Shown: in pieces, positions 52,464 to 64,000 of the stretch
Layout: every line of letters begins with the position of its first letter
Position numbering within the stretch: the stretch's first letter is position 1
Assembly (NCBI RefSeq): GCF_009797025.1
Contig: NZ_CP047027.1
Location: 4,154,001 to 4,218,000 of the forward strand
Direction of reading: 5' to 3'
DNA: 64,000 nt
DNA from: Cellulophaga sp. L1A9
GTDB lineage: Bacteria; Bacteroidota; Bacteroidia; Flavobacteriales; Flavobacteriaceae
Program-made: the position numbers and the translations under genes
The notes under the pieces: generated by a model
Database searches by the model: none
What the model saw: the letters and a program-made list of their open reading frames with translations, nothing else
What the model was told of the DNA's origin: nothing

Positions 52464-53435
52464 ATGATGAATAAAGGCGAAATAATATTATATAATGATA
52501 AACCTAATGTAGAAATACGTCTGGAGAACAATACTATTTGGTTAAATCAAAAACAAATGGCAGAATTATTTGATAAAGATTCTGACACTATTGGCTTGCA
52601 CTTAAAAAATATATATACTACTAAAGAATTAAATAAAAATGCAACTACCGAGAAATACTCGGTAGTTCAAATTGAAGGAAAAAGGGAAGTAAACAGAAAG
52701 GTTTTATTCTATAATTTAGATGCCATTATTTCCGTAGGGTATAGAGTGAATTCTAAAAGAGGAACACAATTTAGAATATGGGCAAATAGCATTTTAAAAG
52801 ACTATTTAGTTCAAGGTTATGCTATAAACCAAAAACGATTAGAACAAAAAGAACAAAAAGAACAAGAAGTAAAAGTCTTAAAAAGTGGGATTCAAATTTT
52901 AAGTCGTGCTATTGAAGAAAAAACTGAAGATAACGAATGGTTAACTGTTTTTGCTAAAGGATTAAGCCTGTTAGATGATTATGACCATGAACAATTAGAT
53001 GCTAAAGGACTAACAACAACAGAAGCCAGTTACCCAAGTTTAGACGATTATCAGGGGATAATTAACCAAATGCTAACCGAGTTTGATTCTGATGTCTTTG
53101 GTAAAGAAAAAGATAAGAGCTTCGAGAGTTCCGTGGCGCAAATAGGAAAAGGATTTGGAGCTGATGATTTTTACCCAAGTTTAGAAGAAAAAGCAACCAT
53201 GCTTTTATATTTTGTAGTGAAAAACCATTCGTTTGTAGATGGCAATAAACGTATAGCAGCAGCTTGTTTTTTAAAATTTTTGCAACAAAATAATATGCTG
53301 TTTAATAGTGAGCAACAACCTATAATTAGTAATTATACATTAGCCAGTTTAACATTATTTATAGCTTCTAGCAAACCAGAAGAAATGCAAACGGTAACAC
53401 GTTTAGTAATTAGTGTTCTGAATAGAAATAAATAA
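52464..53435 (+). CDS. RhuM-Fic fusion protein
   Basis: 323 residues. The N-terminal part (1-130) is a virulence-RhuM domain (WLNQKQMAELFDKDSDTIGLHLKNIY, KREVNRKVLFYNLDAIISVGYRVNSKRGTQFRIWA). The C-terminal part (about 190-310) is a Fic/Doc domain with the intact active-site motif HSFVDGNKR at 255-263, so AMP or nucleotide transfer to a target is possible. Such fusions are commonly found beside type I RM loci. No inhibitory anti-Fic helix gene is obvious, although the 91-residue gene upstream is a candidate. Confidence 0.85.
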   Translation: MMNKGEIILYNDKPNVEIRLENNTIWLNQKQMAELFDKDSDTIGLHLKNIYTTKELNKNATTEKYSVVQIEGKREVNRKVLFYNLDAIISVGYRVNSKRGTQFRIWANSILKDYLVQGYAINQKRLEQKEQKEQEVKVLKSGIQILSRAIEEKTEDNEWLTVFAKGLSLLDDYDHEQLDAKGLTTTEASYPSLDDYQGIINQMLTEFDSDVFGKEKDKSFESSVAQIGKGFGADDFYPSLEEKATMLLYFVVKNHSFVDGNKRIAAACFLKFLQQNNMLFNSEQQPIISNYTLASLTLFIASSKPEEMQTVTRLVISVLNRNK

Positions 53436-53496: not shown

Positions 53497-53730
53497 TTGT
53501 TCTATTTTGTAGTCAAGAACCACTCGTTTACAGAGGGCAACAATCGTATAGCTGCCTTCATTTTTGTATGGTTCTTGGAACGTAATCATTTATTGTACGC
53601 TAAAAATGGAGAAAGAATAGTGGCAGACACTACGATAGTAGGCCTTATCGTAATGATAGCGCAAAGCCACCCTAACGATAAAGACATGATGGTTAAAGTG
53701 GTCGTAAACCTACTGGCTCAAAAACAATAA
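53497..53730 (+). pseudogene. truncated second Fic domain
   Basis: 77 residues matching only the C-terminal part of a Fic domain: YFVVKNHSFTEGNNRIAAFIFVWFLE with the active-site motif altered to HSFTEGNNR (Lys to Asn). The preceding residues (YRKKAANLF, same frame) match the segment before the motif in the upstream gene, but no start for a whole gene exists. It is probably a stump from a duplicated Fic gene, 62 bp behind the RhuM-Fic gene. Confidence 0.7.
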
Positions 53731-54111: not shown

Positions 54112-57100
54112 ATGGGAATACAAACAAACTTTGACTTCCTTAAGGAGAATTATGCCGACTTACTACAATTGGCACTCCTTGCTGAACGTAATTGTTACTC
54201 AGATCCAAGTACCAGCCTATCAAAACTCAGAATTTTAAGCGAAAAGTTAGCAATTATATTAATTGAAATAGAACAGCTTGAAGATGCTTATGATAATAGG
54301 CAGATGACAAGATTAAATACTTTAGCAAATACCCAAAATGTTCCTTCTGAGATTATCAGCATCTTTCACACCATAAGAAAATCTGGAAATAAAGCATCAC
54401 ATTCAGGAGAAGGCTCTCAAGCTGAAGCTAGATTTATGCTTAGGCAGGCTTTTTACTTAACAAAATGGTTTATTGAGGTCTATGAGAATCAAGAAGTTCA
54501 TATAGATTATGTTACACCTGAAGAATCTTGGTTTGTGCAAGATAATGGCATTGCTGAAGAACTTGAACAGGAGCTTGAAATCTTGCGAAAAAAAGTAATT
54601 AACTACGAACGGAAGATTGAAGAGTACCAACAAATATCTGATGAAGCAAAAGATAAACGAAGAAAGCGAGCTTTTGCAAAAGTTAATAAACTAGACGAGT
54701 CAGAGGCAGAAACTAGAGATAGAATTGATAAACAATTACGAGATGCTGGCTGGGAATGTGATACCTGTACTTTAAATTTTAAAACGAAAAAAACCTTACC
54801 TCAAAAAGGAAAACAAATGGCTATTGCCGAATGGAAATGTGGTAATAAATGGGCAGATTATGCTCTTTTCAATGGTCTGGAGCTTATTGGGTTAGTAGAA
54901 GCTAAAAAACATAACAAAAATGTTATGAGCGATTTAGGGCAAGCTAAAACATATAGCCAACTTATTTTAGATGAAAATTTAATTACATTTCCAAATCACG
55001 CAAATAAGAATAATTATAAAGTTCCTTTTCTATTTTCAACAAATGGAAGGCAGTTTTTAGAACAATACAAAACAGCCTCAGGTATTTGGTTTTGGGATGC
55101 ACGAGATCAAAATAATTTAGCGCGACCCTTGCCTGATTGGTTTTCTCCAAGAGACCTTGTTGAAAAGTTAAATTACGATGAACAAGAAGGAATAGAAAAA
55201 CTTCAAAGTACAGATTATGGTCTTTTATCAGACCCAAGTGGTCTGGGGTTACGCGAGTATCAAATTGATGCCATTAAAGCTGTTGAAGAAAAGATTTTAC
55301 ATAATTTAGAAGATAGGCGAGCGTTACTCGCTATGGCAACAGGTACTGGGAAAACACGCACCATGATTGGTATGTGCTACCGTTTAATTGCTTCGGGTAG
55401 GTTTAGAAGAATTTTATTTTTGGTAGATAGACGTATGTTGGGGAAACAGGCCTCAGATGCATTTAAAGAAGTTCACATAGAAAACCTACAGACCTTTGCT
55501 CAGATTTATGATTTACAAGACTTAGATGATAAAATAGCGCAATTAGATACTAAAATTCATTTTGCTACCGTACAAGGTATGGTGCAACGTATTGTCTATT
55601 CTGATAATCAGCCCAGCGTAGGAGATTATGATTGTATAGTCGTAGATGAAGCCCATAGAGGGTATACCTTAGATAGGGAAATGGATGAAGAAGAATTCAT
55701 ACTCCGAGATCAGTTAGATTTTCAAGGTAAATATCGTATGGTTTTAGATTATTTCGATGCCTATCGTATTGGATTGACCGCTACACCGGCTTTACATACC
55801 AAAGAAATATTTGGAGATCCTGTTTTCTTGTATTCATACCGTCAAGCTGTTGTAGAAGGGTACTTAATAGATTTTGAACCACCCTATGTTTTCCAGACCA
55901 AATTATCGCAAGAAGGTATTGTTTGGGAAAAAGGCGATGAAGTAAAAATCTACGACCCTGAAGAAAATGAAATTGTAAGCGCAGGCGTTACCGAAGATGA
56001 AATTAAGGTTGAAATAACAGGTTTTAATCGTAAAGTGATTACGGAAAGTTTTAATCGTGTTGTGCTGACAGAGCTAGTTTCTACTTACGGTATTTTACCA
56101 GAAAATAGGGCCAAAACCTTAATATTTGCAGCTACAAACACGCATGCAGATACCATAGTTAAATTATTGTATGAAGTCTATACCGATTTAGGAGAACCGG
56201 TAGACGGTGATGCAATAGTGAAAATTACAGGTAATGTTTATGAAAGAGAAGATCTTTTGCGCAAGTTTAAAAATGATCAATACCCAAGTATTGTGGTTAC
56301 GGTAGATTTGTTAACTACGGGTATTGACGTGCCTAGTATATCAAATTTGGTGTTCTTACGCCGTGTAAATTCAAGAATTCTTTACGATCAAATGATTGGT
56401 CGTGCCACCAGACGCTGTGATGATATTGGTAAAGATGTCTTCAGAATTTACGATTGTGTGGGTGTATCAGAAATAATGGCGAAAGAACAGGTTATGAAAC
56501 CTGTTGCACCACTAGTAAATAAGAGTTTTGCGAACCTAGTTGAAGAACTAGGTATTATTGAAGATAGCTATACAAAAGAAGCAAAATTAGATCGAGTAGT
56601 AGCGAAAATGCAACGCAAATTTTCTGGTTTTAATGAAAAGCAAAAAGAACAATTTGGAATCCTATCCGGGGAACCAACGGTAAGAGATTTTGCGAAGAAA
56701 TTGAAATCTATTGATTTAGAAAATCTTGATCAGGCAATGCAAGATTATAATCATTTATGGGAGTTTTTAGATAGGGAAAAAGGAAAATCGTATGGCTTAG
56801 GCACCTTGTTTAGCGATCATGAAGATAGCTTGCAGGAAGTATCTAGAGCATATGAGAAAAACTTAAAGCCTAAAGATTACTTAGATTCTTTTGCTGAATT
56901 TATACAGAATAATAGAAATAAAATTACGGCATTAAATATAGTGTGTACTAAACCTAATAGTCTTACCCGAACAGAACTCAAAGAACTTCGGTTAATTTTA
57001 GATACAGAAGGCTATAGTAGAACTAAATTAAATACGGCCTATAAAGAAGTTACCAATACAGATATAGTTGCAGATATTATTGCCCATATACGCACTTCTG

Positions 57101-57363
57101 CTTTAGGTGAAAATTTAGTAAGTCATCAAGAGCGTATTACAAGAGCAGTAGACAAGCTCAAAACTTCACATAATTGGAACCAAATTCAATTAAAGTGGTT
57201 GGATAAAATAGAAGCTCAATTGCAAAAAGAATCTATAATAACATTAGAAGATTTAAATAAACCTCCTTTTAGTGTTGATGGTGGTTTAAAACGATTAGAT
57301 AAAGTGTTTAAAAATGAAACAGCAGATGTAATTAAAGAATTAAACGAATATTTGTACGCTTAA
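54112..57363 (+). CDS. hsdR: type I restriction enzyme R subunit (HsdR, EcoEI-type) with N-terminal DUF4145
   Basis: 1083 residues. A DUF4145 domain (about 15-130) precedes the PD-(D/E)XK nuclease domain (Asp249, Glu263, Lys265 in VEAKKH). The SF2 translocase follows (Walker A ATGTGKT near 409, DEAH near 512, motif III GLTATPA near 553, motif VI QMIGRATRR near 760) and an EcoEI_R_C domain closes it. It translocates DNA and cleaves it at a distance when recognition sites are unmethylated. It heads the operon; the next gene starts 24 bp downstream. The ATG at 54112 is the only start giving the DUF4145 domain. Confidence 0.93.
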   Translation: MGIQTNFDFLKENYADLLQLALLAERNCYSDPSTSLSKLRILSEKLAIILIEIEQLEDAYDNRQMTRLNTLANTQNVPSEIISIFHTIRKSGNKASHSGEGSQAEARFMLRQAFYLTKWFIEVYENQEVHIDYVTPEESWFVQDNGIAEELEQELEILRKKVINYERKIEEYQQISDEAKDKRRKRAFAKVNKLDESEAETRDRIDKQLRDAGWECDTCTLNFKTKKTLPQKGKQMAIAEWKCGNKWADYALFNGLELIGLVEAKKHNKNVMSDLGQAKTYSQLILDENLITFPNHANKNNYKVPFLFSTNGRQFLEQYKTASGIWFWDARDQNNLARPLPDWFSPRDLVEKLNYDEQEGIEKLQSTDYGLLSDPSGLGLREYQIDAIKAVEEKILHNLEDRRALLAMATGTGKTRTMIGMCYRLIASGRFRRILFLVDRRMLGKQASDAFKEVHIENLQTFAQIYDLQDLDDKIAQLDTKIHFATVQGMVQRIVYSDNQPSVGDYDCIVVDEAHRGYTLDREMDEEEFILRDQLDFQGKYRMVLDYFDAYRIGLTATPALHTKEIFGDPVFLYSYRQAVVEGYLIDFEPPYVFQTKLSQEGIVWEKGDEVKIYDPEENEIVSAGVTEDEIKVEITGFNRKVITESFNRVVLTELVSTYGILPENRAKTLIFAATNTHADTIVKLLYEVYTDLGEPVDGDAIVKITGNVYEREDLLRKFKNDQYPSIVVTVDLLTTGIDVPSISNLVFLRRVNSRILYDQMIGRATRRCDDIGKDVFRIYDCVGVSEIMAKEQVMKPVAPLVNKSFANLVEELGIIEDSYTKEAKLDRVVAKMQRKFSGFNEKQKEQFGILSGEPTVRDFAKKLKSIDLENLDQAMQDYNHLWEFLDREKGKSYGLGTLFSDHEDSLQEVSRAYEKNLKPKDYLDSFAEFIQNNRNKITALNIVCTKPNSLTRTELKELRLILDTEGYSRTKLNTAYKEVTNTDIVADIIAHIRTSALGENLVSHQERITRAVDKLKTSHNWNQIQLKWLDKIEAQLQKESIITLEDLNKPPFSVDGGLKRLDKVFKNETADVIKELNEYLYA

Positions 57364-57387
57364 TAATAAACAATTTAAAATTATTTA

Positions 57388-58851
57388 ATGGCAGAGGCTA
57401 TAATTGAAAATATAGAACAAATTGAGGTTTTAAAACATACATTGAAACCAAAAGTCAAGACTGTAAAAGAAATTTTATATAATCAAGATTTAAAAATACC
57501 AGAATACCAAAGACCTTATAAATGGCAACCAAAAAATGTAAAACAATTATTGGAAGATATTGTTTTACATCAAAAAAAATCAGCTTACAGAATTGGTACT
57601 GCTGTTATGCATAAAGATAAGAAGGATTTAAATATTGTAGATGGACAACAACGTATAGTTACTCTGACTTTAATTGCATATGCTTTACATAGTAATGAGT
57701 CAACACAATATTTTGCTAAAAAATATGGAGGAGATAGTACGTTGAAACTACTTTCAGAATCTATGGATAACGATATATCAAAAGCAAATATTATTATCAA
57801 CTTTAAAGAAATTGAAAGAGAGATAAAAAGTTTTACTGAAGATGAAGTTCGTTTCTTTTTTACAAAATGTGAATTGGTATGCATAACCTTGTCTAGTATT
57901 TCTGAAGCCTTTCAGTTTTTCGATTCTCAAAATGCAAGAGGTAAAGATTTAGATCCTCACGATTTATTAAAAGCTTTTCACTTACGTGAAATGTCTAGTT
58001 TTTCAGAAAAAGAAAGACAGCAATGTATCGAAGAATGGGAAAGCAAAAATGACGATGAACTGCACGATGTCTTTTCACAATATTTATTTAGGATTCGTAG
58101 ATGGTCTAAACGTAAAAATGGACGCTATCTAAATAAGACCAATGCTAATATATTTAAAGGGGTTAGTTTAGATAAAACACAAGATTTTCCATACACCTAT
58201 CCTTTAAAAATAAATAATGTTTTTACAGATGAGTTTAATCAACATCTACATCGGAAGGTCGATAATAATATAAAACCATATCCTTTTCAAATAGATCAAG
58301 TAGTTCTTAATGGACAGCGTTTTTTCGAAATGATAAGCTTTTATCAAGATAAAATACACCGAATAAAACAAACTCATAGCGCAAAATACTTTGATAAAGA
58401 AGAAAAAAAATGGATATATGATGAAGATTTTTTTCTCGGTAAGCTTCAATTTCTATCAATTAAATCAAAAGACAGTATATCTTTTAAGGTTTTAAAAACC
58501 TTAGCCTCTTATGAAGGGCGTAACAGATCTGGTGATCAGTATGTAAGAACACTTTTTGATTGCGGACTACTATATTATACAGATAAGTTCGGTAATAAAG
58601 ATCTGGATAGAGTAATTACTAAACTATTTATTTGGGCTTATAGTTTACGTTTAAAATTGCAAGCAGTACAATTAGCTTCTGTAGATAATCATGCTAGAGA
58701 ATGGAATAGTGTGTTTTCTATTATTAGAGAGGCAACACAACCAAATGAAGTATATCAAATGTATTTAGAAAGTATCGATGCTATAAAATCGAAGAAAACT
58801 AAAGATGTATTAGACATGTTTAAATCTTTAAACTATAGCAATGAAAAATAA
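57388..58851 (+). CDS. DUF262 protein (GmrS-like), first of pair
   Basis: 487 residues with the ParB-like DUF262 signature: IPEYQRPYKWQPKNV near 35-49 and VDGQQRIVTLTL with DGQQR at 85-89. No HNH (DUF1524) motif is visible in the C-terminal half, so it resembles a GmrS-like NTP-binding partner. DUF262 proteins are found in type IV restriction (GmrSD, which attacks glucosylated hydroxymethylcytosine DNA) and in R-linked ORFs inside type I loci of other bacteria. It overlaps the next gene by 11 bp, and is inserted between hsdR and hsdM. Confidence 0.85.
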   Translation: MAEAIIENIEQIEVLKHTLKPKVKTVKEILYNQDLKIPEYQRPYKWQPKNVKQLLEDIVLHQKKSAYRIGTAVMHKDKKDLNIVDGQQRIVTLTLIAYALHSNESTQYFAKKYGGDSTLKLLSESMDNDISKANIIINFKEIEREIKSFTEDEVRFFFTKCELVCITLSSISEAFQFFDSQNARGKDLDPHDLLKAFHLREMSSFSEKERQQCIEEWESKNDDELHDVFSQYLFRIRRWSKRKNGRYLNKTNANIFKGVSLDKTQDFPYTYPLKINNVFTDEFNQHLHRKVDNNIKPYPFQIDQVVLNGQRFFEMISFYQDKIHRIKQTHSAKYFDKEEKKWIYDEDFFLGKLQFLSIKSKDSISFKVLKTLASYEGRNRSGDQYVRTLFDCGLLYYTDKFGNKDLDRVITKLFIWAYSLRLKLQAVQLASVDNHAREWNSVFSIIREATQPNEVYQMYLESIDAIKSKKTKDVLDMFKSLNYSNEK

Positions 58852-60775
58852 ATTAGTAGAATTAAACATAGAGGAAGTGTTTTCAAACAACACCTATGCA
58901 ATTCCAATTTATCAACGCAATTATGCGTGGAAAGAAGCGCAAATAAAACAACTGATCCAGGATGTTTACGATTATGCTAAAAACGATACAGCAACAACAC
59001 AACAGTATTATATTGGTAGTTTAGTAGTTTTTGAGCGTAAAACGGAAGAAGGAATTGTTTATGAAACGATTGATGGTCAACAACGTTTAACAACGCTAAA
59101 TATTTTGTTTTCAGTTTTAAAAAATGAATTTGATATTCATATTAATAACTATAAAACAAATCTTCATTTTGATAGTAGACCAATGTCTTCCTATACTTTA
59201 GAGCATATTTATAATAAGACTAAAAAAGAAGATGTAAATAAGTCTGAAAAAAAGTTAAATGTTAGAATTACAGATGCATATACCATTGCTAAAAATGAAT
59301 TAAATAAAATTAAAAAGGCTAATCATTTAGAACAGTTTGTTAATTATTTAAAGGCAAATGTTATTATTCTAAGAGTTCCTGTGCCTGTGGATACAGATTT
59401 AAATCATTACTTCGAGATAATGAATAATCGTGGAGAGCAGCTAGAAAAGCATGAAGTGTTAAAAGCTAAAATGCTAAAGGTATTTAGCAAAGAAAAAAAG
59501 GCAAGCCACGTTTTTAATACCATTTGGGAAACTTGTGCTAATATGGAGAAATATGTACAGCATGGTTTTAATACAGAGGTGCGCACTGCTCTTTTTGGAA
59601 AAGATTGGAATCATTTTGAAGCAGAAGTTTTTGAAGATGTTATCAATAGTTTTAATTCTAAAGTTGAGGTAGATAATACTGCATTAACTATTGAGGCTTT
59701 ATTAAAGGATAAACAACAAATAGAAATAATAAAGGAAGAGGACGATGATTCTCCAGAACGCTTTAATTCTGTAATTAACTTTTCAAATTTCTTATTACAT
59801 ATTTTAAGAATATTAGTTAATAATAATTCTAATTATGAATCGCTTTTAGAGAATGAGAAAGATGTTCCATTAGACGATAAAAGACTAATTGAAACTTTTG
59901 ATTTTTTCTTAAATGAAGAGGATAAAAACAAGAAAAAAGCATTTGTTGAAGATTTTGTCTTTTTATTATTAAAGGGCAAGCACTATTACGATAAATATAT
60001 TATTAAACGTAATTTAAAAGATGATAAATGGAGTCTAAAATATTTAAAAGTAGAGTATTATAATAAAAAAGCGTCTCATCAATACAAAAACAGTTTAGAC
60101 ATTAATAATAAATCAATTTTAATGTTATTGTCAATGTTTCATGTGTCTGCACCTACATTAATTTATAAACATTGGTTAAATGCTGCATTAAATTATTTGC
60201 TGGATGATAGTAAAGAAGAAATTGATGGAGAAGATTACATCCATTATTTAGAAGACTTAAGTGATACATATTTATATGATCGTTTTCTAGCTAAAGAAGA
60301 AAAAGATTACTTTAATATTATTTATAAAAATGACGCTTATCCTAGTACTAATAAAGATGACTTAGATACATTTAAACTTAACGAAGGTACAAGCGTAGAA
60401 AATTTTATATTCAATCGTTTAGATTATTTACTTTGGAAACAAGATCAAGAAAAAGACAATAAACAATTTTCCGATTTTAGTTTTTCTTTCCGTACTTCTG
60501 TAGAGCATTACTATCCACAAAACCCAATGGAAGGACAAGATGTATTAGATATCAATACATTAGATAATTTTGGAAACTTATGCTTAATAAGTAGAAATAA
60601 AAACTCTAAATTAAGCAACTACATGCCAACCGCCAAAAAGGAGCATTATGCTAAAAGAGGTAGTATAGAAAGCATAAAACAACAAATTATGATGCAAGAA
60701 AAGCATTGGCAAGAGAATGAAATTAAGGAGCACGCAAAAAAAATGATAGAAACACTTTTAACAACAAGAATATAA
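58841..60775 (+). CDS. DUF262-DUF1524 protein (GmrSD-like)
   Basis: 644 residues. The N-terminal DUF262 part has IPIYQRNYAWKEAQIKQL and ETIDGQQRLTTLNIL (DGQQR near 77-81). The C-terminal DUF1524 HNH-like part has SVEHYYPQNP (catalytic His near 555) and NFGNLCLISRNKNSKLSN (about 578-595). Proteins of this type are GmrSD-family nucleases, so a second, modified-DNA-directed restriction activity is likely. Its stop abuts the hsdM start (TAAATG). Confidence 0.88.
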   Translation: MKNKLVELNIEEVFSNNTYAIPIYQRNYAWKEAQIKQLIQDVYDYAKNDTATTQQYYIGSLVVFERKTEEGIVYETIDGQQRLTTLNILFSVLKNEFDIHINNYKTNLHFDSRPMSSYTLEHIYNKTKKEDVNKSEKKLNVRITDAYTIAKNELNKIKKANHLEQFVNYLKANVIILRVPVPVDTDLNHYFEIMNNRGEQLEKHEVLKAKMLKVFSKEKKASHVFNTIWETCANMEKYVQHGFNTEVRTALFGKDWNHFEAEVFEDVINSFNSKVEVDNTALTIEALLKDKQQIEIIKEEDDDSPERFNSVINFSNFLLHILRILVNNNSNYESLLENEKDVPLDDKRLIETFDFFLNEEDKNKKKAFVEDFVFLLLKGKHYYDKYIIKRNLKDDKWSLKYLKVEYYNKKASHQYKNSLDINNKSILMLLSMFHVSAPTLIYKHWLNAALNYLLDDSKEEIDGEDYIHYLEDLSDTYLYDRFLAKEEKDYFNIIYKNDAYPSTNKDDLDTFKLNEGTSVENFIFNRLDYLLWKQDQEKDNKQFSDFSFSFRTSVEHYYPQNPMEGQDVLDINTLDNFGNLCLISRNKNSKLSNYMPTAKKEHYAKRGSIESIKQQIMMQEKHWQENEIKEHAKKMIETLLTTRI

Positions 60776-62179
60776 ATGGCATTATCCACACAAGAAATAG
60801 TAAACAAACTCTGGAACCTTTGTAACGTATTACGTGACGATGGTATTACATATCACCAATATCTAAACGAGTTAACCTTTATTCTGTTCCTTAAAATGGC
60901 AGAAGAAACCGATTATAACGATAAGTTGCCACAAGGCTACCGTTGGGAAGACCTAAAACATAAAGAAGGGATAGAACTATCTACATTTTACAAAGAGTTG
61001 TTATTGCATTTAGGAACCAAAACAACAGGTAACATTCAGAAAATATACAACAACGCACAAACCAGTATACAAGAACCTGCCAACCTGCGTAAAATTATAA
61101 AGCACATAGATGAACTCGATTGGTTTGAAGCCAAAGACGAAGGTCTAGGCGAAATGTACGAGGGTTTACTAGAAAAAAATGCGAGCGAGAAAAAATCGGG
61201 AGCAGGACAATACTTTACACCAAGACCATTAATTAATGTGATGGTACGTTTAATGGATCCTAAAGTAGGCGAGCGCCTTAACGATCCTGCCTGTGGTACG
61301 TATGGCTTTATGATTGCTGCACACCATTATATTAGAAATCATAATGATATTTATACTCTTGATGATGCACAAAACCATCACTTGCTAAATGAGCAATATT
61401 CTGGTTGCGAGTTGGTGGGCGATACACACCGTTTAGCCATGATGAATTCATTTCTACATGGTATGGGTGGTAACATAGCTTTACAAGATTCGTTAAGCAG
61501 CTATGGCGAAAGCATAAAAAATAAAGACCTCGTTTTAGCAAACCCCCCATTTGGAACAAAAAAAGGAGGCGACCGACCAACCAGAACCGATTTAGTGTAC
61601 CCAACAAGTAACAAGCAATTAAATTTCTTACAGGGTATTTACCGTAGTTTACACACAAGAGGAGGTGCAAGAGCAGCCGTAGTATTACCAGATAATGTAT
61701 TATTTGAAGATGGCGACGGACAAAACGTGCGTAAAGATCTGATGGAAAAATGTAATTTACACACTATTCTACGTTTACCAACAGGTATTTTTTACGCAGC
61801 AGGTGTAAAAACAAACGTGTTGTTTTTTGAGCGTGGTACCATAGATAAAGCCAATACTAAGGACGTATGGTTTTACGATATGCGTACCAACATGCCCAAC
61901 TTTGGGAAACGTACGCCATTTACCGAAAGCTATTTTGAAGACTTCGAAAAAGCCTACACAGCAGAAGACCGAACCAAAATTAAAGATGAACGCTTTAGTT
62001 GTATTTCCAGAGATTTTATTGCCAAAAAGAACGATTCTTTAGATTTAGGTTTAATTGCAGACGATAGCATTACCAAAGCCGAAGACATTGGCGAACCTAT
62101 AGACATTGCCAAAGAAGCCTTAACAGAATTAACCAGCATTACCAAGGAGTTGAATGCCATAATTAAAGCATTAAACTAG
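60776..62179 (+). CDS. hsdM: type I N6-adenine methyltransferase subunit (HsdM)
   Basis: 467 residues. An N-terminal HsdM helical domain (1-130) is followed by the SAM-binding motif DPACGTYGF near 167-175 and the catalytic NPPF near 256-259 (VLANPPFGTKKGG). Motif I has Tyr where most HsdM proteins have Gly (CGTGGF), yet other motifs are intact. Methylation protects host sites and modifies hemimethylated DNA. It starts directly at the stop of the DUF262-DUF1524 gene and ends directly before hsdS. Confidence 0.93.
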   Translation: MALSTQEIVNKLWNLCNVLRDDGITYHQYLNELTFILFLKMAEETDYNDKLPQGYRWEDLKHKEGIELSTFYKELLLHLGTKTTGNIQKIYNNAQTSIQEPANLRKIIKHIDELDWFEAKDEGLGEMYEGLLEKNASEKKSGAGQYFTPRPLINVMVRLMDPKVGERLNDPACGTYGFMIAAHHYIRNHNDIYTLDDAQNHHLLNEQYSGCELVGDTHRLAMMNSFLHGMGGNIALQDSLSSYGESIKNKDLVLANPPFGTKKGGDRPTRTDLVYPTSNKQLNFLQGIYRSLHTRGGARAAVVLPDNVLFEDGDGQNVRKDLMEKCNLHTILRLPTGIFYAAGVKTNVLFFERGTIDKANTKDVWFYDMRTNMPNFGKRTPFTESYFEDFEKAYTAEDRTKIKDERFSCISRDFIAKKNDSLDLGLIADDSITKAEDIGEPIDIAKEALTELTSITKELNAIIKALN

Positions 62180-63853
62180 ATGGAAAATAAGTCACCAAAG
62201 AATTGGGTTGAAACTAAACTAGATGAAGTTGTACTTTCTAAAAAGGGAAAGAAACCGAAAATTCTAAATGAAGTTGAATTTGAAGGTTCTGTGCCTTATC
62301 TAGATATTAAGGCTTTTGAAAAGAATGAAATTAGAAGATATGCAGATGTCGAATCTTCTAATTTAATAATTGAATCTGAAATTGGTATTGTTTGGGATGG
62401 AGCAAGAAGTGGTTGGGTAAGTAAAGGGAAAAAAGGAGCAGTTGGTTCTACAATAGCTATTGTAAAGCCAATAAATATTGACTCTGATTTTTTATATAGA
62501 TTTCTTCAATCAAAATTTGATTATTTAAATACAAATACAAGAGGGACAGGGATTCCTCACGTAGATCCGAAAGTTTTATGGAATATAGATTTTCCACTTC
62601 CACCACTAGCAGAACAACAGCGCATTGTTGCCAAACTAGACGATTTATTTGGGCATTTAGATACTCTTAAAACCCGTTTAAAAAGCATACCACAAATCCT
62701 TAAAAACTTTAGACAAGCGGTGTTAACCCAAGCGGTAACTGGTAAACTTACTGAGGCATGGCGTGTTGGGAAGGAGTTGGATTCTTATTTGAAAATAATT
62801 ATTAAAAACAGAAAGGAGTATTATATAAAAAGAATTGAAAGCGCAAAGATTAATGGTGATAGAAAGCCAAAAAAATTAGATGAAACAGATTTCGAATTTT
62901 ATAATTACGAATCAAATGTTAAAATGCCAAAAGGTTGGAAATTAGCTAATTTAAAAAATATTGCAGATTTATTGACTGATGGAGAACATGCAACACCTAG
63001 AAGGACAGAAAGTGGGTATTATTTATTGTCAGCTAGAAATGTTCGAGATGGTTTTATCTCTTTAGAAAAAGTTGATTATGTTCCTGAAGACGAATATTTA
63101 AGAATTAAAAAGAGATGTAATCCAGAATTTAAAGATGTTCTAATCTCTTGCTCAGGTTCAGTTGGTAGGGTTTCAACAGTACCTAAAGATTTGGAATTCG
63201 TTATGGTACGAAGTGCTGCTTTAGTGAAGTTGCAATCAAATAAAGAGATTTCCAAATTTGTAGAGCTTTCGCTAAGATCAAGAGTTGTACAAAATCAAAT
63301 TTTAACACTTCAAAAATCAACTGCTCAGGCAAATCTTTTCTTGGGGCAAATTGGAAAAATTGTTATTCCAATACCTTCGAAAGAAGAACAAACCGAAATC
63401 GTAAAACGTGTAGAACATTTATTTGCTAAAGCAGATACTATAGAAGCTCAATACCAAAGCCTAAAAACAAAAATAGACAGTTTACCACAAGCCATATTAG
63501 CCAAAGCCTTTGAAGGTGAGTTGGTAGAGCAGTTAGATACAGATGGTGATGCTAAGGAGTTGTTGGAGGAGATACTGAAGTTGAAAGCGGAGGAAAAAAA
63601 GAAACCAAGAAAAAAATCAACGAAGAAAAGTAATATTAAGATTTCAAAAAAGAAAATAATAAAACCAAATCCTGAATTTCCTCTTTATTCAGTTTTGTTA
63701 AATTATTCAAAAGGTTTATCCGAAAAAGAATTGTATAAACTTTCTGGTTTGACCCAACATTTGTTTTTAACTCAATTTGATAAGGAACTTGAATCAGGTA
63801 TGATTAAATATGATGTTGAAAACAAAATATTGGTTAAGGTGGTGAGCAAATGA
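62180..63853 (+). CDS. hsdS: type I specificity subunit (HsdS) with C-terminal extension
   Basis: 557 residues. Two target recognition domains (about 1-150 and 235-400) alternate with two conserved coiled-coil regions: PLAEQQRIVAKLDDLFGHLD and PSKEEQTEIVKRVEHLFAKAD. A Lys-rich linker (about 470-490) leads to an extra C-terminal domain (about 495-555, LYSVLLNYSKGLSEKELYKLSG), resembling a winged helix. Typical HsdS ends soon after the second conserved region, so the extension is unusual. It shares ATGA with the next gene. Confidence 0.9.
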   Translation: MENKSPKNWVETKLDEVVLSKKGKKPKILNEVEFEGSVPYLDIKAFEKNEIRRYADVESSNLIIESEIGIVWDGARSGWVSKGKKGAVGSTIAIVKPINIDSDFLYRFLQSKFDYLNTNTRGTGIPHVDPKVLWNIDFPLPPLAEQQRIVAKLDDLFGHLDTLKTRLKSIPQILKNFRQAVLTQAVTGKLTEAWRVGKELDSYLKIIIKNRKEYYIKRIESAKINGDRKPKKLDETDFEFYNYESNVKMPKGWKLANLKNIADLLTDGEHATPRRTESGYYLLSARNVRDGFISLEKVDYVPEDEYLRIKKRCNPEFKDVLISCSGSVGRVSTVPKDLEFVMVRSAALVKLQSNKEISKFVELSLRSRVVQNQILTLQKSTAQANLFLGQIGKIVIPIPSKEEQTEIVKRVEHLFAKADTIEAQYQSLKTKIDSLPQAILAKAFEGELVEQLDTDGDAKELLEEILKLKAEEKKKPRKKSTKKSNIKISKKKIIKPNPEFPLYSVLLNYSKGLSEKELYKLSGLTQHLFLTQFDKELESGMIKYDVENKILVKVVSK

Positions 63854-64000
63854 GAATAAATAAATTATATATTCATAAATATAAAAATCTAAAAGAATTC
63901 AAAATAGATTTTTCTAACTCTTATTACATAAGTGTATTACTTGGTAAGAATGGAACTGGAAAATCTAATTTTTTTGAGTTCCTAACTATTGTTTTTAAAT
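63850..64000 (+). CDS. SMC/OLD-like AAA ATPase, partial (cut by window end)
   Basis: Fifty residues from the ATG at 63850, which overlaps the hsdS stop by 4 bp. They read MRINKLYIHKYKNLKEFKIDF, the N-terminal strand of SMC/RecF-like ATPases, then the Walker A GKNGTGKS at residues 32-39. The translational coupling to hsdS places it in the restriction operon. The rest, including any nuclease domain, lies beyond the window. Confidence 0.8.
   Translation, partial: MRINKLYIHKYKNLKEFKIDFSNSYYISVLLGKNGTGKSNFFEFLTIVFK

Follow-up and report, generated by a model that had tools for sequence, protein, structure and literature searches.

A type I restriction-modification operon of Cellulophaga sp. L1A9 with TgvAB-like and PtuAB modules, and the recurrence of the gene order hsdS-ptuA-ptuB

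Why should a type I restriction-modification (RM) operon carry two DUF262 genes between hsdR and hsdM, and an ATPase gene directly behind hsdS? The question is raised by the last part of a 64,000-nucleotide (nt) stretch of Cellulophaga sp. L1A9 DNA (NZ_CP047027.1, positions 4,154,001 to 4,218,000; hereafter the window), from a genome of 5.07 Mb assembled as a single contig. The locus is best explained as a type I RM operon with two added nuclease modules, a TgvAB-like pair and a PtuAB pair. The combination of type I genes with TgvAB is known; the new part is PtuAB. We consider it rather probable that PtuAB is functionally coupled to HsdMS, giving the type I complex a second effector, and is not a mere neighbour. 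This reading is based on the gene order, the conservation of hsdS-ptuA-ptuB, the association of an HsdS C-terminal domain with PtuA, the existence of loci without a detected HsdR, and a difference between the window and a Lacinutrix genome. The genes of the window locus all lie on the + strand, head to tail:

54112..57363, + strand: hsdR, 1083 amino acids (aa); DUF4145, ResIII/helicase and EcoEI_R_C (Pfam); type I restriction and translocation subunit
57388..58851, + strand: tgvA-like gene, 487 aa; DUF262 (GmrSD_N) and DUF7834, without a matched nuclease domain; motifs QR41, DGQQR85 and FDSQN178
58841..60775, + strand: tgvB-like gene, 644 aa; DUF262 and DUF1524 (GmrSD_C); motifs QR25, DGQQR78 and FEIMN191
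60776..62179, + strand: hsdM, 467 aa; N6-adenine methyltransferase; motifs DPACGT170 and NPPF256
62180..63853, + strand: hsdS, 557 aa; specificity subunit with two target-recognition domains
63590..63850, + strand: 3' end of hsdS, extra C-terminal part, residues 471-557
63850..64000, + strand, cut by the window end: start of ptuA, an AAA_15/21 ATPase of 534 aa, which ends at 65454 in the genome
65451-66272, + strand, beyond the window: ptuB (HNH-type), overlapping ptuA by 4 nt

From hsdR to the ATPase gene the intergenic gaps are 24, -11, 0, 0 and -4 nt, and hsdS and ptuA share the letters ATGA. An earlier note, made from the sequence alone, had listed the six genes in this order and at these coordinates, with gaps of at most 24 nt and overlaps of 11 and 4 nt, all of which was confirmed. 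With the 4-nt overlap, the ATPase gene is not seen as a separate unit. A search with a strict Bacteroidota-type promoter pattern found no site in front of ptuA or anywhere else in 53400-67600, and because it gave no site at all it says nothing on an internal ptuA promoter. Reading on beyond 64000, as the note had advised, identified the ATPase as PtuA and added its partner PtuB. The best PADLOC models were PtuA for the ATPase (3.2e-98) and PtuB for the HNH partner (1.3e-65). PtuA carries GKNGTGKS at 32 and SEGE at 355 as Walker motifs, with LDEPDTHLNP in the alignment consensus, and its metagenome relatives (P0002-P0009) are 55-67% identical. In PtuB the motifs CCYC70 and EHFRP86 were found, and the Pfam HNH match stays below its cut-off (17.2 vs. 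21.4).

The conservation of this arrangement was assessed by scanning genomes with an alignment of PtuA, using patterns from PtuA only. The best 80 of 446 relatives were kept, and an order-level search added six loci other than our own, giving 86 loci, 85 of them distinct (L046 and L121 are one contig). Gene labels were taken from hidden Markov model profiles trained on the same loci, so that a weak label deserves less trust than a strong one. The earlier note had suggested looking for the same gene order across Bacteroidetes; the link between ATPase and hsdS recurs in many phyla and in both bacteria and archaea: hsdS ends no more than 200 nt upstream of ptuA in 84 of the 85 distinct loci (85/86), the sole exception being L091 with 1565 nt, and the distance is 60 nt or less in 78/86. 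PtuB was labelled beside PtuA in 83 of the 86 loci, within 60 nt in 80 and with larger overlaps in L052, L075 and L089. Of the remaining loci, L067 and L099 run off the contig, and in L125 an open reading frame (ORF) without a label carries CCYC and EHF motifs. Common orders were hsdR-hsdM-hsdS-ptuA-ptuB and hsdR-hsdS-ptuA-ptuB-hsdM. The same unit was found in all six strong matches from IMG/VR (L211 and L212 seem to be the same locus), where four weak matches had no labelled hsdS, and on plasmids, where a search with the PtuA of L095 found five matches and the four examined all carry hsdS-ptuA-ptuB. Where annotated, the plasmid genes are called only 'AAA family ATPase' and 'hypothetical protein'. 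Congruence between PtuA and HsdM was only moderate (with one contig counted twice).

The next 20 matches within the phylum comprised six stand-alone PtuAB pairs, one PtuAB pair with hsdS (L156), one locus cut by the contig, and 12 hsdS-linked ATPases of other lineages with no labelled PtuB. Further ATPase lineages behind hsdS were seen in L165-L169, L173 and L175, some passing TIGR04435, together with overlapping partners of 358-376 aa. Three of seven such other hsdS-linked ATPases tested pass TIGR04435 (L166, L167, L173). Two scanned partners of other-lineage ATPases match the PADLOC candidates PDC-M01B/M62B and, weakly, PtuB.

A second line of evidence is an extra domain of about 75 residues, found on the HsdS C-terminus or an adjoining small ORF in 72 of the 85 distinct PtuA loci. 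None of 24 unselected HsdS and none of 14 HsdM-matched loci gave a match to it. At L090:8678-8863, L091:6924-7154 and L099:9754-9972 the tail domain is encoded by a small ORF next to hsdS, which arose from a frameshift or is a separate gene. On a quick PtuA tree, presence of the domain needs at least two changes and presence of HsdR at least 13. The AlphaFold2 model of the window HsdS (mean pLDDT, or predicted local distance difference test, of 89.8) has a disordered linker at 484-493 and a tail at 501-554 that is modelled as a winged-helix-like fold; solved S subunits among the matches listed align to residues 1-454 of the model at most. A caveat to the proposed coupling is that the window HsdS domain is divergent, reaching only E = 0.03 against a domain model built without the window sequence.

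Comparison with Lacinutrix sp. 5H-3-7-4 (L176), the nearest relative found, bears on the same end of HsdS. There hsdR, tgvA, tgvB and hsdM occur in the same order, with 79-92.5% protein identity (TgvA-like 91%, TgvB-like 89.6%, HsdM 92.5%), so that the DUF262 pair stays linked to the hsd genes, and the loss or unlinking named in the earlier note as a refuting outcome was not seen. The Lacinutrix HsdS has 457 aa, is 44-45% alike over the matching parts only, and is without the tail domain. The last blastn block of more than 150 nt common to both genomes ends at 63589, at HsdS residue 470, immediately ahead of the extra domain. Five nt after the Lacinutrix hsdS stands another ATPase gene (PADLOC PDC-M62A), followed by an overlapping gene for a 304-aa protein (PDC-M62B), which we read as HNH-like from its CxxC and DH motifs and weak matches to the PtuB model; Zorya genes come next. 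Between the two genomes, then, a different HsdS end goes with a different ATPase pair, and the remaining part of the operon, hsdR-tgvAB-hsdM, is kept.

HsdR itself was counted in 57 loci (56 distinct) in which ptuA is flanked by 8.5 kb or more on either side. It is present in 34/57 and gave no match at E = 1e-4 in 21/57, and the other two have only weaker or opposite-strand helicase matches; absence here refers to the flanks of the locus, a genome-wide ResIII search having matched all helicases. A scan of ten large neighbouring ORFs, one from each of ten of the 21 loci without HsdR, found no HsdR. Nor was there an HsdR among ten ORFs beside hsdMS-ptuAB in loci with no labelled HsdR, three of which were AbiEii. 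These AbiEii-type nucleotidyltransferase genes lie directly upstream of hsdM in Bacteroidota (L050:6170-6973, L069:1374-2156, L072:5922-6965). Among domain-bearing loci 22 have HsdR and 20 do not, versus 11 and one among domain-less loci (Fisher p = 0.018 with the duplicate removed and relatedness ignored).

The main rival is a guard function, in which PtuAB would be silent within the type I complex, like PrrC with EcoprrI, and, freed once a phage anti-restriction protein disables that complex, would cause abortive infection through cleavage of DNA or tRNA. The window PtuA also matches PADLOC AriA (2.4e-20), which we take to belong to PARIS. PARIS has been named as an RM guardian (PMC12707154). 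A type Ic system is the partner of PrrC, which EcoprrI keeps silent and T4 Stp activates (PMC2610378, PMC3874165), and the PtuAB of retron Eco7 is toxic alone, is neutralised by reverse transcriptase (RT) and msrmsd, and depletes tRNA-Tyr (PMC11555353). A guard of restriction would, however, be less useful in the 21/57 loci without detected HsdR, although HsdMS itself is a possible phage target, and the window ATPase, whose Pfam matches are all to P-loop families (AAA/ABC/SMC-type) and whose HNH partner is a separate protein, is unlike the single-chain PrrC. We regard a guard function as unlikely, and favour coupling of PtuAB to HsdMS as an effector because HsdR can be absent.

The proposed coupling may be pictured as follows. 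Through its winged-helix-like C-terminal domain, HsdS would hold PtuA on the methyltransferase HsdM2S. An encounter of this complex with unmethylated target DNA, or its disturbance, would then lead the ATPase PtuA to license the HNH nuclease PtuB. The target cut may be DNA or tRNA, because one Septu PtuAB is reported to target DNA and that of retron Eco7 depletes tRNA-Tyr (PMC11555353). In loci without HsdR, HsdMS and PtuAB would make up the entire restriction system.

How the operon came to its present site was examined by comparison within the genus. In G485 (L178) the DNA up to 53954 and from 67489 is conserved, and the block of about 13.5 kb between them (about 53954-67489), from hsdR to a 266-aa gene, is replaced by 3.7 kb of other genes, including at L178:7672-11399 a DUF262-DUF1524-DUF4268 (GmrSD-like) protein and a PLD-type protein. 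Across 17 other genomes of the genus, an HsdR search at E = 1e-20 found eight matches, all with 36% identity or less. The chromosomal site is a defence hotspot, and the block was acquired. At its right edge (67204-67576) lie four copies of an 87-bp tandem repeat. To its left, a RhuM-Fic gene (52464-53435) is followed by a short Fic fragment (53497-53730); the RhuM-Fic gene was rejected as a member of the unit, its DNA being common to G485 and G477 of the genus. DNA over the stretch with both genes occurs in same-genus genomes and falls outside the acquired block.

Acquisition of the block at a site that in L178 holds GmrSD-like and PLD-type genes would also suit three independent defence systems on one promoter, with ptuAB and tgvAB as hotspot cargo without coupling. 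TgvAB alone protects Escherichia coli, though against several phages the whole cluster protects better (PMC11411939); stand-alone PtuAB exists (L159-L162, L164, L171), and in L177 tgvAB occurs with no hsd gene labelled. Cargo would not, however, be expected directly behind hsdS in 84/85 distinct loci of bacteria and archaea, nor would it be expected to bring a private HsdS domain. Independence of the three systems therefore seems quite improbable, less likely still than a guard function.

The last gene of the block is

66308-67108, beyond the window: 266-aa gene, 35 nt after ptuB

and is followed by 854 nt with only an 81-aa ORF listed, and then by a nitroreductase gene. The 266-aa protein has no Pfam, PADLOC or NCBIfam match. 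Its model is all-helical and confident (pLDDT 94.6), with no PDB or BFVD fold match at E <= 0.001. A search at E = 0.001 gave 555 relatives; apart from the protein itself, the best comes from Cellulophaga baltica and is 90% identical. A role as fourth part of the unit is unsupported: homologues occur in 5/395 genomes of the phylum, our own included, and around the four others (L117-L120) no PtuA was labelled in the stretches examined.

Several known systems resemble parts of the locus. Septu (PtuAB, PADLOC type I) has the same AAA ATPase and overlapping HNH gene; the window pair differs in not being self-contained, since it lies among hsd genes and seems to be linked to HsdS, whereas no hsdS is labelled in the stretches examined around stand-alone Septu pairs, for example L159-L162. 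PrrC, whose gene is located directly behind hsdS, is likewise an ATPase effector from within a type I hsd operon, but it is a single-protein anticodon nuclease; for the window ATPase it was rejected on the P-loop matches and separate HNH partner described above. TIGR04435, 'restriction system-associated AAA family ATPase', also stands directly behind hsdS, and its name shows that NCBI curators were already aware of a related ATPase associated with restriction. Loci of that type have overlapping partner genes in several cases and an HsdS without a match to the C-terminal domain, and the window PtuA reaches only 116.3 bits against a cut-off of 300 for this model (restrict_AAA_1), which was rejected. 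The methylation-associated defence system (MADS) contains a methylase, an ATPase and an S subunit related to those of the locus (PADLOC mad2 7.7e-54, mad3 2.8e-17, mad5 9.2e-42), and was rejected with NCBIfam MAD2, MAD3 and MAD5 scores far under cut-off (83/720, 40/420, 53/400); none of eight papers listed for MADS contained that phrase. Retron I-A (Septu type II, RT-PtuA-PtuB) similarly has PtuAB as an effector under a partner's control (PMC11555353). It too was rejected, the sole RVT_1 match in the genome being at 73 kb and the locus at 4.21 Mb, and the NCBIfam PtuA and PtuB equivalog scores falling below cut-off (37.9 vs. 500 and 48.5 vs. 150). No paper with a title or abstract opening on an hsdS-PtuAB unit was found in a literature search that mostly left out subscription papers, and 'Septu' is absent from the main text of a 2025 RM review. 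Within the literature searched, then, a conserved unit of hsdS-ptuA-ptuB in which HsdS bears a private domain and HsdR is often absent was not found; the PtuAB pair itself is known.

The DUF262 pair has a published counterpart. TgvAB is a two-protein type IV system inside a type I cluster of Vibrio cholerae VPI-2, which restricts Tevenvirinae without need of the HsdR nuclease and protects against phages with modified cytosines; the five-gene cluster gave 79 matches in 41,142 genomes (PMC11411939). Likeness to it was assessed by domains, motifs (listed in PMC11411939) and operon position. In the window, as in V. cholerae, the adjacent genes both encode DUF262 and only the second DUF1524; the first protein has no DUF1524 or HNH match in Pfam, as the earlier note had observed. 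QR, DGQQR and FxxxN motifs are found in both, a His-Me motif (EHxxP; EHYYP at 555, then asparagines, by motif search) in the second, and the pair is embedded between hsdR and hsdM. The order differs, being hsdM-hsdS-tgvA-tgvB-hsdR in V. cholerae, judged by its locus tags (VC1769 hsdM to VC1765 hsdR), and hsdR-tgvA-tgvB-hsdM-hsdS in Cellulophaga, with the V. cholerae-type order also in L011; the available text of PMC11411939 mentions no PtuAB in that cluster. The pair is most likely, by analogy, a type IV enzyme against phages with hypermodified cytosine. The earlier note had proposed a three-part operon. Its co-directional type I genes, GmrSD-like pair and ATPase-linked effector all stand, but the joining of type I with a GmrSD-like pair is not new, and because TgvAB has been described inside the V. 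cholerae type I cluster, the central idea was already published (PMC11411939). Within the family, DUF7834 occurs in 6/199 genomes, our own included; TgvA and TgvB are adjacent in all five other loci, with hsd genes nearby in L011, L012, L014 and L015 and L013 cut by a contig end. A wider search found TgvA in 7/397 family genomes, our own included, adding the hsd-linked L176 and L177, which has no labelled hsd gene. Two hsd-ptuAB loci contain a single GmrSD-like protein (L057:11251-13512 in a Kordia assembly, L070:4593-6815 in a proteobacterial metagenome-assembled genome), which we read as separate additions of a type IV-like gene.

The HsdR/M/S module is best explained as ordinary type I. All three subunits are present, with conserved motifs in HsdM and in HsdR (DEAH512 by motif search, ATGTGKT read from the translation). 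HsdR scores 1281.9 bits against NCBIfam PRK11448 (cut-off 729) and 2.6e-201 against PADLOC REase_I. The DUF4145 domain singled out in the earlier note is there, though only just above the Pfam cut-off (24.0 vs. 23.1 bits), and it looks ordinary because the whole protein passes PRK11448.

PtuAB has been known in two settings, on its own as Septu and as the effector of a retron, and linkage to a type I specificity subunit would be a conserved third. Coupling of PtuAB to HsdMS makes a concrete and cheap prediction, namely an HsdS tail that binds PtuA. More tentatively, it is possible that hsdMS-ptuAB forms a distinct and widespread RM class, in which the type I methyltransferase tells self from non-self and the winged-helix tail of HsdS passes the signal on to the ATPase and its HNH partner; in about a third of loci this pair would stand in for HsdR, and elsewhere it would serve as a backup. 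With TgvAB added, the window operon would offer layered responses to unmodified DNA, to hypermodified DNA and to a disturbed or bypassed type I complex. Coupling also offers a possible reason for hsdMS loci without hsdR, and 'type I RM' and 'Septu', listed side by side by annotation tools, may be one system. If true, type I methyltransferases would gain a nuclease other than HsdR, and PtuAB would be a portable effector with exchangeable sensors.

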